A DNA stretch of 35,214 bases. Origin: Alphaproteobacteria bacterium (GTDB lineage: Bacteria; Pseudomonadota; Alphaproteobacteria; Ferrovibrionales; Ferrovibrionaceae). Below the pieces are notes generated by a model. That model did not search any database. It was given only the letters and a program-made list of their open reading frames with translations, and was not told the DNA's origin. The number at the start of each line of letters is the position of its first letter. The stretch's first letter is position 1. A program made the position numbers and the translations under genes. Shown piece by piece: positions 14,557 through 20,529 of the stretch. Where the stretch lies: positions 1 through 35,214 of the forward strand of contig CANJGB010000033.1 in NCBI GenBank assembly GCA_947473805.1. The letters run 5' to 3'.

Positions 14557-15306
14557 CTACTTGTCGAGTTGCGGGCCGGGGACCAGCGGCAGGTGCTGGC
14601 CGCCATCGAGCGCGATCATCTGGCCGGTAATGCTGCGGGTATCCACCAGGTAGCGCACCGTGGCGGCAACCTCGTCGGGCGTCGCGCCCCGCTGCAGCGG
14701 CGTGGCCGCGACCTGGCGTTCGAACTGGCCCGGCTTCTGGTGCGCGTTCGCCAAAGTGGGGCCGGGGCCGATGCCGTTGACGCGGATGCGCGGCGCCAGC
14801 GCCATGGCCAGCGTCTGGGTCAGCGTCCACAGGCCCGTCTTGCTGACGGTGTAGGACGCGAAGAAGGGCGACAGCTTCCACACCCGCATGTCGATCAGGT
14901 TGACGATATTGCCCTCGGCCGCGTCGGCGGGCAGTTGCTTGGCAAAAGCCTGGGACAGGAAGAATGGCGCGCGCAGGTTGATGTCGAGCTGCCGGTCCCA
15001 GCCGCCGACCGTAGCGCTGTCGGCCGTGTCGTACTCGAAGATCGAGGCGTTGTTCACCAGCAGGGTCAGCGGGCCGATGGCCTGCTCGGCCTCGGGCACC
15101 AGGGCGGCCACGGCGGCGGCATCGGCGAGGTCGGCCTGGACGGCAGCGGCCTTGCCGCCATGGCTGCGGATCTCGCGCACCACGGCGGCGGCATCATGGC
15201 CCGAGCCGTTGTAGTGCACGGCGACCGCCCAGCCGTGGCGGGCGAGGTCGAGGGCAATGGCGCGGCCGATGCGGACGCCGGCGCCGGTGACCAGGGCGTT
15301 CTTCAT
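14557..15306 (-). CDS. Pteridine reductase-like SDR (PTR1/FolM type)
   Basis: A 249-residue short-chain dehydrogenase with the pteridine-reductase variants of the SDR motifs. The NADPH-binding loop is TGAGVRIG (7-14), fitting TGx3RxG rather than TGxxxGxG. The usual catalytic Ser is replaced by Asp139, 13 residues before Tyr152 in YTVSK (Lys156), exactly the Asp-Tyr-Lys spacing of Leishmania PTR1. NNAS (85-88) and the C-terminal TGQMIALDGGQHL are standard. Probable reaction: NADPH reduction of dihydrobiopterin-, dihydromonapterin- or dihydrofolate-like pterins. The 7-bp gap to folB supports a pterin role. ATG 15306 starts right at the nucleotide-binding strand; ATG 15330 is an alternative. Confidence 0.85.
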   Translation of the reverse strand: MKNALVTGAGVRIGRAIALDLARHGWAVAVHYNGSGHDAAAVVREIRSHGGKAAAVQADLADAAAVAALVPEAEQAIGPLTLLVNNASIFEYDTADSATVGGWDRQLDINLRAPFFLSQAFAKQLPADAAEGNIVNLIDMRVWKLSPFFASYTVSKTGLWTLTQTLAMALAPRIRVNGIGPGPTLANAHQKPGQFERQVAATPLQRGATPDEVAATVRYLVDTRSITGQMIALDGGQHLPLVPGPQLDK

Positions 15307-15506
15307 GGGCAGGGAAATAGCATGCCGCATGCCCTCCCGTAACCGCGCATTGCCGCACCGCAACCGGAATGCGCGAAACATCGTCCAGTAAATTCTCTGG
15401 CAATTTAGCGGGAAAACCCCAATAATTCGCTTTTTTCGGCGGGTTTTGCGCCGGACACCTTCTCGCCCCTAGGCGGCCTACTGGTCTCCTGTGCGCTGGC
15501 AGGTTC
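15307..15506. other. Gene-free leader region left of the riboswitch
   Basis: About 200 bp between the divergent pteridine reductase and the riboswitch. It contains a GC-poor patch (TTCGCTTTTTTCGG near 15426) and must hold both divergent promoters. No convincing -35/-10 pairs or operators were identified. Confidence 0.4.
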
Positions 15507-15598
15507 GATAAAGGCAAACCGTTCGAGAGAGCGGGACGCAAAGCCTCCGGCCCAAGGACTGTCCGTCAGGACGCCGTCCGGGTAGCGGGGCTGCCGAT
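15507..15598 (+). ncRNA. Cyclic di-GMP-I (GEMM-I) riboswitch
   Basis: The RNA matches the GEMM-I aptamer core in order: AAGGCAAACC (15511-15520), a stem CCGTTC/GAGCGG capped by a GAGA (GNRA) tetraloop, GGGACGCAAAGCCTCCGGCC (15533-15552), a variable second hairpin, and GGTAGCGGGGCTGCCGA (15581-15597). GGCA near the 5' end pairs with TGCC at the 3' end to close P1. The invariant GGCAAACC, GACGCAAAGCC and GGTAGCGGGG blocks carry the c-di-GMP contacts of the Vc2 structure. It lies in the leader of a gene for an EAL phosphodiesterase-type protein. Whether binding turns expression on or off cannot be read; no intrinsic terminator is seen before 15687, so translational control is more likely. Confidence 0.93.
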
Positions 15599-15666
15599 CC
15601 GGATGCTGGCAATTTGGCGAGTCTCATTCCGTCCGATAACCAGTTCCCGACAGCGTCCCTTCCTCG

Positions 15667-15680
15667 CGCGTACGCGGAGT
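15667..15680 (+). promoter_or_regulatory. Palindrome next to the ribosome site (possible expression platform)
   Basis: The perfect palindrome CGCGTACGCG (15667-15676) runs into GGAG (15676-15679), the probable ribosome site of ATG 15687. Refolding driven by the upstream riboswitch could mask or free this site. This is inference from position only. Confidence 0.3.
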
Positions 15681-15686
15681 CGGGGC

Positions 15687-18077
15687 ATGGACGGCACAAG
15701 GATGGCGCGGCGTCACAGGTTGGAGAGCAGGCGGTTCCTGTTCTGGTCGACGGGCGTTGCCGTCACGGCCCTCGCGGCGTCCGCGTTGATCACCTTTTGG
15801 ATGGCCGGCGCCCTCGGCGTGTGGCTGGCCGTCATGCCGGTCCTGCTCTGCGGGATGGCGGCGGTGAAATATCTTGGCTGGCGTTATATCGACATCCTGG
15901 CGCGCGAGAACACGTTTCTCGACGACCAGAACATGCGCATGTCCGAGACCATCGCGACCCAATGGGCGGTCATGCACGCGGTGCCGGCGCAGATCGCGCT
16001 GCTCGACCGCGACGGCAACGTGGTGGCGCTGAACCGCGCCTGGCAGCAGTTCGGCATGCGGGTCGGCAAGGGCGATGCCGATTACGGCACTGGCGCCAAT
16101 CTCATCGACCTGTGCGAGGCGAGCGACGGCCCCTACGGGCGCGACGGCGCCGAGATCGCCCTGGCCCTGCGCGAAGTGGTGAGCAAGCGCCGCCCGTTGC
16201 AGGCGCTGGAATACGCCAACCGCTGGACCGCCGAGCAGAGCTGGTTCCGCCTGATCTTCGCGGCGCTTGACCACGAGGGCGACACCGCCGCGGTCGTCGT
16301 GCAGCTCGACATCACCGACATGAAGCGCGCCGAAATCCAGTTGAAGCAGAAGACCATCGCGCTGCAGAACGTGACCAGCGGCATTCCCGGCATCGTCTAT
16401 CAGTTCATCGCGCACGGCGCCGGCGATGTGCGCTTCACCTTCGTCAGTCCGCAGATCACCCGCATCCTGGGCTACGAGGCGGACGCCATCGTGCCGCATA
16501 GCGGCCTGCCGTTCCATGCCATCGCCCATCCCGACGATCGCGAGTGGATGACGCGCTCGAAACAGGACTTCGTGCGCGACGGCATCGACGGCGACACCTG
16601 GCGGGCCGAGTTCCGCGTCCTGGCCCGGACCGGCGAGGTGCGCTGGGTGCAGGCCTTCGCGCGTCTGACGATTGCGGAGACGGGCGACAAGATTGTCGAC
16701 GGCGTGATGCTGGACGTGTCCGAGTATCACGCGGCGGCCGAGAAGATCACCGAACTGCAGCACAACGATCCGCGCTCGGGCCTGTTCAACCGGCAATACC
16801 TGCTGGGCCAGATCGGGGCGACGCTGAAAGGGTTGCAGGACGGCGGCGATCCCTGCGCGCTGATCATCGTCGAAGTCGGCGACTTCAACGATATCGTCTC
16901 GACCTACGGCGTGCCGTTCGGCGATGACGTGCTGCGCCTCGTCGGCGCGCGTCTGACGGAGCTGGTGCGGCGTCACGACACCGTCGGGCGGATCGAGAGC
17001 GCGCGGTTTGGCGTACTGGCGACCGACATCTCTAGCGCTGATGTGGCGGTGAAGCTGGCCAACAAGCTGACCAGCGGCCTGCGCGGCATGTACGCACTGC
17101 CGGGACAGGAAGTGTCGATCCGGGTGCGCGTGGGCCTGACCTTCACCGACCGCGCCGGCCGCGTGCCGGTCGAGATCCTGCGCCAGGCGATCGTGGCCCT
17201 GAACCATGCCACCCGCGATTCAAGCGACGGTGTGGTGCTGTACGCCGACCATATGGGCCAGGAACCGGAACTGCGCATCCGCATCCGCAGCGCGCTGGCG
17301 ACGGCGCTGTCGCGCAACGAATTGTTGTTGCGCTACCAGCCGCGGGTCGACATCAAGACCGGGGTGGTGGTCGGCTGCGAGGCGCTGATCCGCTGGAATC
17401 ATCCGGTGTTCGGCATCCAGCCGCCGAACCGTTTTATCGCCATCGCCGAGCAGTCGGGCATCATCATCGAGATCGGCCGGTGGGTGATCAACGAGGCTTG
17501 CCGCCAGGTGGCGGCCTGGCGCCGCGCCGGCCTCGAAAACCTCGTGGTCTCGGTCAACATCTCGGCGGTGCAGTTGCAGCAGGACTACCTGCCGGCAGTG
17601 CTCGAGGATGCGTTGGCCGCGGCGGGGGTGCCGGCGGCCAGCCTGCAGCTGGAGATCACCGAGTCGGCGTTCGTCGGCGCCGACGGCGACATGGCGAAGC
17701 ATCTGGCGGCGATCAACGACCTGGGCATATCGCTGGCGATCGACGATTTCGGCACTGGCTATTCGTCGCTGTCATATTTGCGCGAACTGCCAGTCGAGAT
17801 GGTCAAGATCGACCGCGCCTTCATCGTCGATGCCGCGACCAGCCAGAGCGATGCTGAAATCGTCCGTTCCATCGTGGCGATCTGCCGGACGCTGGGGCTG
17901 CAGGTCGTGGCCGAGGGGGTCGAGACGCAGGAACAGCTGGCGTTCCTGGCCAGTGCCGGCGTCGATGAGGCGCAGGGCTTCTACCTGGCCCACCCGATGG
18001 AGGCCGCGGACTTTGTCGCCTTCGTGCGGGATTTCCGGCCCGCATCGCTGTCATCACCGCCGGCCCGGCGGGCCTAG
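15687..18077 (+). CDS. Membrane PAS-GGDEF(degenerate)-EAL c-di-GMP signalling protein
   Basis: Probable c-di-GMP phosphodiesterase of 796 residues. Two membrane helices (about 17-41 and 44-61), a PAS-like segment (92-210), a clearer PAS domain (230-347, with FVSPQITRILGYEAD and HPDDREWM), a GGDEF domain (357-520) and an EAL domain (532-784). The GGDEF motif reads ESARF (437-441), so cyclase activity should be lost, yet the inhibitory-site RxxD (428-431) is kept at the canonical 5-residue spacing. EAL catalytic residues look complete: EAL (565-567), NIS, LEITES, DDFGTGYSSL (Asp686/687), Lys707 and EGVET (Glu743). ATG 15687 is preferred for its GGAG; ATG 15603, right after the riboswitch, would add 28 basic residues. 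A c-di-GMP riboswitch precedes it. Confidence 0.92.
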   Translation: MDGTRMARRHRLESRRFLFWSTGVAVTALAASALITFWMAGALGVWLAVMPVLLCGMAAVKYLGWRYIDILARENTFLDDQNMRMSETIATQWAVMHAVPAQIALLDRDGNVVALNRAWQQFGMRVGKGDADYGTGANLIDLCEASDGPYGRDGAEIALALREVVSKRRPLQALEYANRWTAEQSWFRLIFAALDHEGDTAAVVVQLDITDMKRAEIQLKQKTIALQNVTSGIPGIVYQFIAHGAGDVRFTFVSPQITRILGYEADAIVPHSGLPFHAIAHPDDREWMTRSKQDFVRDGIDGDTWRAEFRVLARTGEVRWVQAFARLTIAETGDKIVDGVMLDVSEYHAAAEKITELQHNDPRSGLFNRQYLLGQIGATLKGLQDGGDPCALIIVEVGDFNDIVSTYGVPFGDDVLRLVGARLTELVRRHDTVGRIESARFGVLATDISSADVAVKLANKLTSGLRGMYALPGQEVSIRVRVGLTFTDRAGRVPVEILRQAIVALNHATRDSSDGVVLYADHMGQEPELRIRIRSALATALSRNELLLRYQPRVDIKTGVVVGCEALIRWNHPVFGIQPPNRFIAIAEQSGIIIEIGRWVINEACRQVAAWRRAGLENLVVSVNISAVQLQQDYLPAVLEDALAAAGVPAASLQLEITESAFVGADGDMAKHLAAINDLGISLAIDDFGTGYSSLSYLRELPVEMVKIDRAFIVDAATSQSDAEIVRSIVAICRTLGLQVVAEGVETQEQLAFLASAGVDEAQGFYLAHPMEAADFVAFVRDFRPASLSSPPARRA

Positions 18078-18149
18078 TTCCGCCAAAGGGGGCAAAACCG
18101 CGCCTAAACCCTTGACCGGGAGACGCGGCGGGAGTCCACTGCGCTTCCC

Positions 18150-19076
18150 ATGCCGATCTATTTCCCGATCGCCGAACTTTCGATCGATGCGTTCCTTTTG
18201 CTCGCCATTGGCGGCTTCGTCGGATTCCTGTCCGGCGTGTTCGGCGTGGGCGGCGGCTTCCTGCTGACTCCGACCCTGATCTTCCTCGGCGTGCCGCCAC
18301 CCGTCGCCGTCGCCACCCAGGCGCCCCAGATCGTCGCCAGTTCGATGTCCGGCATGATCCCGCACTGGCGCAACGGCAATGTTGATTTTGCCATGGGGGG
18401 CGTGCTGGTCGGCGGCGGCGTGATCGGCGCCGGTCTAGGCGTCTGGCTTTATGCCTTCTTGCGCGATGTGGGCCAGATCGACCTGGCGATTTCGCTGCTC
18501 TACGTCATCCTGCTCGGCTCGGTCGGCCTGTTGATGCTGATCGAGGCGGTGCGCGCGCTGGTCGAGGTCAAGCGCCCCGGTGCGCCGCGGCGTCGACGGC
18601 TGCACGAGCATTACTGGCTGCACAGCATGCCGTGGAAGGTGCGCTTCCGCGTGTCGCGCCTTTACATCAGCGTGCTGCCGGTGCTGGGCATCGGCATGTT
18701 CGCGGGCATCCTGGTTGCCATCATGGGTGTCGGCGGCGGCTTCCTGCTTGTGCCGGCGATGATCTTCATTCTCGGCATGCCGACCATGGTCGCGGTTGGC
18801 ACGTCGCTGTTCCAGATCATCTTCGTCACGTCGGTCGTCACCGTGCTGCATTCGACCTCGAACTACACGGTCGACATCCCGCTGGCCCTGCTGGTCGCTG
18901 CCGGCGGCGTGGTCGGGGCGCAATGGGGCGTCAAGGTCGGCCAGCGGCTGAAGGCCGAGCAGTTGCGCATCCTGTTCGCGCTGCTGGTCCTGGCGGTGGC
19001 GATCAAGATTGCCGTCGACCTGACGCTGACGCCTGACGAGCTTTATTCAATCATTCCGGTCCTGCAGGCCTCCTAG
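18150..19076 (+). CDS. TauE/SafE-family permease (sulfite/organosulfonate exporter type)
   Basis: Inner-membrane permease of 308 residues with about 8 helices in two homologous halves. Each carries the family motif near its start: SGVFGVGGGFLLTPTLIFLGVPP (28-50) and AIMGVGGGFLLVPAMIFILGMP (second half). A charged cytoplasmic linker (about 140-170, with RRRRLHEHY) separates the halves. Family members move sulfite, sulfoacetate or related anions, generally outward, but most are uncharacterised. It starts 72 bp after the EAL gene and 160 bp before amt on the same strand; a functional tie to either is not evident. Confidence 0.88.
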   Translation: MPIYFPIAELSIDAFLLLAIGGFVGFLSGVFGVGGGFLLTPTLIFLGVPPPVAVATQAPQIVASSMSGMIPHWRNGNVDFAMGGVLVGGGVIGAGLGVWLYAFLRDVGQIDLAISLLYVILLGSVGLLMLIEAVRALVEVKRPGAPRRRRLHEHYWLHSMPWKVRFRVSRLYISVLPVLGIGMFAGILVAIMGVGGGFLLVPAMIFILGMPTMVAVGTSLFQIIFVTSVVTVLHSTSNYTVDIPLALLVAAGGVVGAQWGVKVGQRLKAEQLRILFALLVLAVAIKIAVDLTLTPDELYSIIPVLQAS

Positions 19077-19236
19077 GCCTCGCCGCGATAACCGCCCTTG
19101 CGTTATGCAGGTTGCCGGTTTATTCGGCTGAAATACTGCCTGTTCGACGGGCGGGACTGGATCGCCGCTCGTCCAATCGGCAGTTTCCACCCCGATGCCC
19201 GCGAAAATGGCAGCGGCAATTCGGGGGAACGCCACA

Positions 19237-20529
19237 ATGCCTAAAATCCTATCGCTCGTCGGCATTGCCGGCTGTGGTGTCGCTGCGGCCGGCGCCCCGG
19301 CTATGGCGGCGGTCGAACCCTCGGCCGGCAGCACCGCCTGGGTGCTGACATCCACGGCGCTGGTGCTGTTCATGACCTTGCCGGGCCTGGCGCTGTTCTA
19401 CGGCGGCCTGGTGCGGGCGCGGAACGTGCTGTCGGTGCTGATGCACTGCTTCGCCATCTGCTGCGTCGTGTCGCTGCTGTGGGCGCTGGTCGGCTACAGC
19501 CTGGCGTTCGGCGAGGGTGGCTCGTTCATCGGCGACCTCAACCACGTCTTCTTGCGGAACCTGGCCGTGGTTCGCGCCGGCACCGAGGTGCCCGAAGGCG
19601 TGTTCGCCATGTTCCAGATGACCTTCGCCATCATCACGCCGGCGCTGATCGTTGGCGCGTTTCCCGAGCGGGTGAATTTTCCCTTCGTCGTGCTGTTCAG
19701 CGCCGCGTGGCTGCTGTTCGTCTATGTCCCGGTGGCACATTGGGTCTGGGGCGGCGGCTGGCTGGCGCAGATGGGCGTGCTCGACTTTGCCGGCGGCATC
19801 GTCGTGCATACCACCGCCGGCATCTCCGCCCTGGTGGCGGCGGTGATGGTGGGCGCGCGCAAGGGCTTTCCGGCGACGCTCATCCCGCCACACAGCCCGA
19901 TCCTGACCATGATCGGCGCCGGCATGCTGTGGGTGGGCTGGTTCGGCTTCAACGGCGGCAGCGCGCTGGGCGCCACCAACGTTGCCGGCAATGCCATCCT
20001 CGTCACCCACCTGGCCGCGGCGGCCGGCGCGGTGACGTGGCTGGCCGCGGAATGGATCAAGGTCGGCAAGCCGACCTCGGTCGGCATCGTCACCGGCTGC
20101 ATTGCCGGGCTGGCCACCGTCACGCCCGCCTCGGGCTATATCGGGCCGGGCGGCGGCATGGCGATCGGCGCGGCCGCCGGCCTTGTCTGCTTCAACATCA
20201 CCTTGGTGGTGAAGCAGCGTTTCAAGATCGACGATTCACTCGACGTCTTCGCCGTCCATGGCGTTGGCGGCATGCTGGGCTCGCTGCTGCTGTCCGCCTT
20301 CGCGCTGCCGTCCCTCGGCGGCGTCGGCCTTGCCGAAGGCATGGACGGCCTGCACCAGCTGGGCGTGCAGGTGCTGGCGGTGGTGGTGGTCGGCCTGTGG
20401 TCGGGCATCGCGACCTACGTTCTGGTCAAGCTGCTGGGCGCGGTGACGCGGGTGCGTGTCACCGAGGAGCAGGAGCGCGAGGGACTCGATCTGGTCAGCC
20501 ACGGCGAGCGCGGCTACGACCTGAACTGA
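19237..20529 (+). CDS. amt: Ammonium transporter
   Basis: Trimeric inner-membrane ammonium channel of the Amt/Rh family, 430 residues. It begins with a cleavable signal-like segment (1-24, ending PAMAA), as in other bacterial Amt proteins with 11 helices. Key residues map onto E. coli AmtB: Asp183 (DFAGGIVVH) for Asp160, His191 for the first pore His and His341 (FAVHGVGG) for the second. FYGGLVRARNVLSVL and WVGWFGFNGGSAL are conserved. The C-terminal tail ends DLVSHGERGYDLN, the site that normally contacts PII protein. ATG 19237 is set by GGGGGAA. No glnK gene adjoins it, which is unusual. It ends at a strong hairpin. Confidence 0.95.
   Translation: MPKILSLVGIAGCGVAAAGAPAMAAVEPSAGSTAWVLTSTALVLFMTLPGLALFYGGLVRARNVLSVLMHCFAICCVVSLLWALVGYSLAFGEGGSFIGDLNHVFLRNLAVVRAGTEVPEGVFAMFQMTFAIITPALIVGAFPERVNFPFVVLFSAAWLLFVYVPVAHWVWGGGWLAQMGVLDFAGGIVVHTTAGISALVAAVMVGARKGFPATLIPPHSPILTMIGAGMLWVGWFGFNGGSALGATNVAGNAILVTHLAAAAGAVTWLAAEWIKVGKPTSVGIVTGCIAGLATVTPASGYIGPGGGMAIGAAAGLVCFNITLVVKQRFKIDDSLDVFAVHGVGGMLGSLLLSAFALPSLGGVGLAEGMDGLHQLGVQVLAVVVVGLWSGIATYVLVKLLGAVTRVRVTEEQEREGLDLVSHGERGYDLN

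Follow-up and report, generated by a model that had tools for sequence, protein, structure and literature searches.

The closest described systems to the locus reported here are, on the RNA side, the class I c-di-GMP riboswitches Vc2 and Vc1 of Vibrio cholerae (RF01051) and, on the protein side, the GGDEF-EAL phosphodiesterases MucR and MorA. In Vc2 the ligand is contacted by G20, A47 and C92 (PMC4744006). Both ON and OFF switches are found among the class I switches of known sign, and c-di-GMP riboswitches rarely control c-di-GMP enzymes (PMC6366702).

We analysed a stretch of 35,214 nucleotides from an alphaproteobacterium of the family Ferrovibrionaceae, referred to as the window. It carries an element that shares with Vc2 and Vc1 the three-helix layout, the GNRA loop, the conserved blocks and the three ligand contacts, but this element heads the gene of a probable phosphodiesterase, whereas published RF01051 riboswitches rarely head genes for c-di-GMP enzymes (PMC6366702). 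We consider it quite likely that a class I c-di-GMP riboswitch here heads the mRNA of a membrane PAS-PAS-GGDEF-EAL protein which acts as a phosphodiesterase.

The aptamer

15504 to 15599, plus strand: GEMM-I (c-di-GMP-I type) riboswitch aptamer, identified by matches to RF03167 and RF01051 and by the count of invariant blocks

The first-pass annotation had placed a GEMM-I aptamer with a GNRA-capped stem in the leader of the gene. In the Rfam scan of the whole window the sole match above cut-off was c-di-GMP-I-GGC (RF03167), with 69.9 bits at 15504-15599 on the plus strand (E = 9.6e-15; gathering cut-off 59 bits). The plain c-di-GMP-I model (RF01051) gave 69.2 bits at 15503-15598, compared to a gathering cut-off of 35 bits, so that both models scored well over their thresholds. 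The window has a single occurrence of the two invariant blocks in order, GGCAAACC and then GGGACGCAAAGCC, and 100 shuffles gave none. The P2 loop reads GAGA and is of the GNRA type, as in RF01051, and the base pairing of P1, P2 and P3 agreed with the covariance model. The annotation was thereby confirmed on both points, and we concluded that this is a genuine class I c-di-GMP (GEMM-I) riboswitch aptamer. A covariance-model search of the 3.3-Mb genome (58 contigs) found it in a single copy.

Translation start and expression platform

15397 to 15426, plus strand: promoter-like site 77 nt upstream of the aptamer (CTGGCA-18-AATAAT), assigned by consensus match only
15600 to 15686, plus strand: expression platform of 87 nt, non-coding by codon usage and without an intrinsic terminator in the site scan
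15653 to 15659, plus strand: possible anti-aptamer GCGUCCC, an exact 7-nt complement of the aptamer core GGGACGC at 15533-15539 (weak)
15676 to 15679, plus strand: Shine-Dalgarno sequence (SD) GGAG, predicted by folding to lie in a hairpin with the upstream CUC/CUUCC
18150 to 19076, plus strand: TauE/SafE family permease by Pfam domain search, the next gene on the same strand and perhaps co-transcribed

The first in-frame ATG, which is the start given in the list of open reading frames, is found at 15603, 3 nt behind the aptamer. The codons from 15603 to 15686 had a log-odds value of -0.335 per codon versus a gene mean of 0.439, and a GC3 of 0.61 versus 0.89; no SD precedes 15603, and this start was rejected. 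The GGAG at 15676-15679 is located 7 nt 5' of the ATG at 15687. Since the segment 15603-15686 looks non-coding and an SD precedes 15687, a start at 15603 is improbable and translation most likely begins at 15687, as judged from the sequence. The aptamer had been described as standing directly before the gene; its position and strand held, but with the likely start at 15687 a platform of 87 nt lies in between.

Upstream of the aptamer the promoter-like site at 15397-15426 matched the consensus in 9 of 12 positions, with 0.1 such sites expected in shuffles, and was the only one in 15300-15800. An intrinsic terminator was not found in the same interval and a terminator-type platform was rejected, thus control is probably exerted at the level of translation. 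Behind the phosphodiesterase gene the genes of the TauE/SafE permease and of an ammonium transporter follow on the same strand (18150-20529). No promoter- or terminator-like site was detected between the phosphodiesterase gene and the permease in 18000-19300, and co-transcription of the two transporter genes with the phosphodiesterase gene is possible.

In the mechanism that we propose, c-di-GMP would bind to the aptamer, the binding would alter the access to the SD at 15676-15679 via the 87-nt platform (translational control), and the encoded enzyme would hydrolyse c-di-GMP and so close a feedback loop. That the messenger controls the enzyme which degrades it had been proposed before; the reasoning appears sound. 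Aptamer class, position, strand and gene type held. As to the sign of this feedback, folding gives at most a hint of an OFF switch; the loop would then be positive, not homeostatic.

The strongest competitor is the opposite sign, in which the ligand would turn the phosphodiesterase ON and the loop would be a homeostatic negative feedback. We place this reading somewhat short of an even chance. Metabolite riboswitches usually work by negative feedback, and an ON switch has a precedent in the class I c-di-GMP riboswitch Bc2 (PMC6366702). It also agrees with the longer RNA, which when folded without constraints took up a third structure in which most of the SD was paired. On the other hand, the SD stayed mostly paired when the aptamer was forced, and in the single alternative helix that was found the SD becomes exposed once the aptamer is broken.

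This alternative helix is formed by the anti-aptamer at 15653-15659. When the RNA was folded to 15680 the helix was part of the lowest-energy structure, and the aptamer fold was 1.6 kcal/mol higher. When the RNA was folded to 15695 with the anti-aptamer forced, the GGA of the SD was approx. 98% unpaired, compared to 8-60% with the aptamer forced. As the SD is exposed with the anti-aptamer and less so with the aptamer, folding suggests an OFF switch and slightly favours it. According to this model the aptamer would form in the presence of ligand, an anti-SD CUC would pair with the GGAG and less enzyme would be made. The riboswitch would then turn the phosphodiesterase OFF at high c-di-GMP via the anti-aptamer helix and constitute a positive-feedback, possibly bistable switch on one mRNA. 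We hold this full version tentatively, at clearly less than an even chance. The folding hint is weak: a complement to the aptamer core of the same length arose in 376 of 2000 platform shuffles (19%), and the stability of the leader was no better than that of shuffled sequences (z -0.15). Comparative support for the platform was sought through orthologues with the same leader, and none were found in the family and class protein searches; thus the platform has no comparative test.

We regard it as improbable that the element is a relic whose aptamer still folds and binds, with the control of the gene lost. Non-functional c-di-GMP riboswitches do occur in C. difficile (PMC6366702), and the long platform shows no demonstrable structure. 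In addition, an SD-like sequence within 14 nt behind the aptamer was present in 37 of 54 aptamers of the class and is absent in the window, where the platform is longer. Against a relic, the conserved letters and pairs of the aptamer are all kept, which would not be expected under long neutral drift.

The encoded protein

15687 to 18077, plus strand: membrane PAS-PAS-(degenerate GGDEF)-EAL protein of 796 aa, likely c-di-GMP phosphodiesterase, from Pfam domains and motifs
16968 to 16979, plus strand: RRHD at the I-site position, by motif reading
16995 to 17009, plus strand: degenerate GGDEF motif ESARF, residues 437-441, by motif reading
17376 to 17927, plus strand: EAL catalytic motifs CEALIRW, VSVNIS, LEITES, IDDFGTGYSS, VKIDRAF and VVAEGVET, by alignment

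The gene had been annotated as PAS-GGDEF-EAL with an intact EAL motif. PAS_4, PAS_3, GGDEF (73 bits) and EAL (256 bits, PF00563) were all found above the Pfam cut-offs, and two hydrophobic N-terminal stretches precede the PAS domains. In an alignment with the solved phosphodiesterases MucR (5m3c, 5m1t) and MorA (4rnh) all EAL catalytic motifs were intact. The gene type therefore stood, with one refinement: the GGDEF domain is degenerate, as ESARF takes the place of the GG(D/E)EF active site of diguanylate cyclases. Cyclase activity is thus unlikely on sequence grounds. With the EAL motifs intact and the GGDEF motif lost, the protein is probably a c-di-GMP phosphodiesterase. It has the EAL catalytic motifs and the GGDEF-EAL tandem in common with MucR and MorA (5m3c, 4rnh), but differs from them in the lost GGDEF motif, the two N-terminal hydrophobic stretches and the two PAS domains.

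A degenerate GGDEF domain with RxxD at the I-site position would also suit a c-di-GMP receptor or trigger enzyme without significant phosphodiesterase activity, since such hybrids can be regulatory. However, every EAL catalytic motif is intact and matches those of active enzymes, and we give this explanation a small probability only.

Ligand, relatives and the c-di-GMP circuit

15513, plus strand: G equivalent to Vc2 G20, ligand contact, by model alignment (numbering of PMC4744006)
15540, plus strand: A equivalent to Vc2 A47, by model alignment; the RF03167 consensus has G here
15594, plus strand: C equivalent to Vc2 C92, ligand contact, by model alignment

All three pocket letters (G, A and C) are canonical for RF01051, and c-di-GMP is therefore the likely ligand, as read from the aligned positions. 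The G at 15513 argues against the c-AMP-GMP (GEMM-Ib) subclass, in which the base corresponding to Vc2 G20 is an A. The GGC variant reportedly goes back to the 2017 variant-riboswitch paper of Weinberg, its likely source, and its name presumably stands for the three pocket letters, as far as the consensus of the RF03167 model indicates. That consensus is GACGCGAAgCC; the window reads GACGCAAAGCC, with A at 15540 instead of the marking G in the GACGC-N-AAGCC block. It is very unlikely that the aptamer is a c-di-GMP-I-GGC variant with a ligand possibly other than c-di-GMP, for although RF03167 is the top Rfam match and over its cut-off at 69.9 bits, it was preferred over plain c-di-GMP-I by only 0.7 bits, and the class-mates that pass its cut-off likewise have A at the GGC-marking position. 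With this margin and this A the GGC label tells little about the ligand and was rejected as a hint to it.

In three other loci (L007 at 1501-1615, L117 and L121) the basal G-C pair of P2 is swapped, giving GCCAAACC with a partner block of the GACGG/GGCTG type, which looks like a compensatory change adjacent to the pocket.

Among 17 other genomes of the family no aptamer was detected with the GGC model at the sensitivity used, and no c-di-GMP-I match in those of them included in the class search. A protein search of the same 17 genomes returned no long relative above 37% identity; a few partial hits, confined to the conserved EAL domain, had up to 42% identity. Across the class, a protein search at E 1e-95 gave general GGDEF-EAL relatives, the best with 32-39% identity. 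Aptamers of the c-di-GMP-I type were present in 33 of 385 genomes of the class and in 23 of 299 genomes of the phylum sample.

The class-mates share the aptamer consensus, but in most of them the SD follows the aptamer immediately, whereas in the window it is located 77 nt further on. Their targets, named by eye from sequence motifs, are mostly ParA-like, transglutaminase/LapG-like peptidase, flagellin-like and response-regulator genes, in contrast to the phosphodiesterase of the window. At class loci, among them L012, L017, L020 and L024 (aptamers at 1501 onward, minus strand), an AGGAG is often found directly behind the aptamer with the start codon approx. 11 nt on. UCCUCG is frequent in the class as the 5' strand of P1, so P1 itself might hold the SD, which would be a compact OFF design; 10 of the 37 class aptamers with an SD-like sequence had 4 or more uninterrupted pairs. 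A ParA-like ATPase gene is a recurrent target (L016, L017, L019, L020, L021, L024 and L030), and the product of the gene after it carries the motif SLTAG(L/I)(L/M)ARKGEA. In L092, L096 and L097 the aptamer is placed 14-16 nt before a flagellin-like gene.

A GGDEF/EAL gene was found behind the aptamer in 2 of 83 sampled Pseudomonadota loci, a count for which usually 1.5 kb of downstream DNA were read (3 kb in some loci, less in a few), so that domains beginning farther out would be missed, and in which the tandem loci L114 and L123 were placed only roughly. The two are the window and L106, where a protein whose GGDEF motif is intact, likely a cyclase, is encoded 202 nt behind the aptamer. This count fits the published rarity of c-di-GMP enzymes as targets (PMC6366702).

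A domain search of the genome gave 9 GGDEF and 5 EAL domains. Five of the other GGDEF domains have an intact GGDEF or GGEEF, hence c-di-GMP is very likely made in this organism, judging by these motifs. The number of domains also means that the riboswitch-led enzyme is not alone in turning over c-di-GMP, but one of several. The earlier description of the loop as self-contained was thus overstated; the feedback loop is direct, yet not self-contained.

The locus presents a familiar riboswitch class in a less usual place. Its parts are ordinary, but the arrangement, with a sensor RNA and the messenger-degrading enzyme on one transcript, is uncommon. The one question of interest here is the sign of the loop, which decides between homeostasis and self-reinforcement, and such a minimal case would allow both the sign and the dynamics of a direct second-messenger feedback at the RNA level to be measured.
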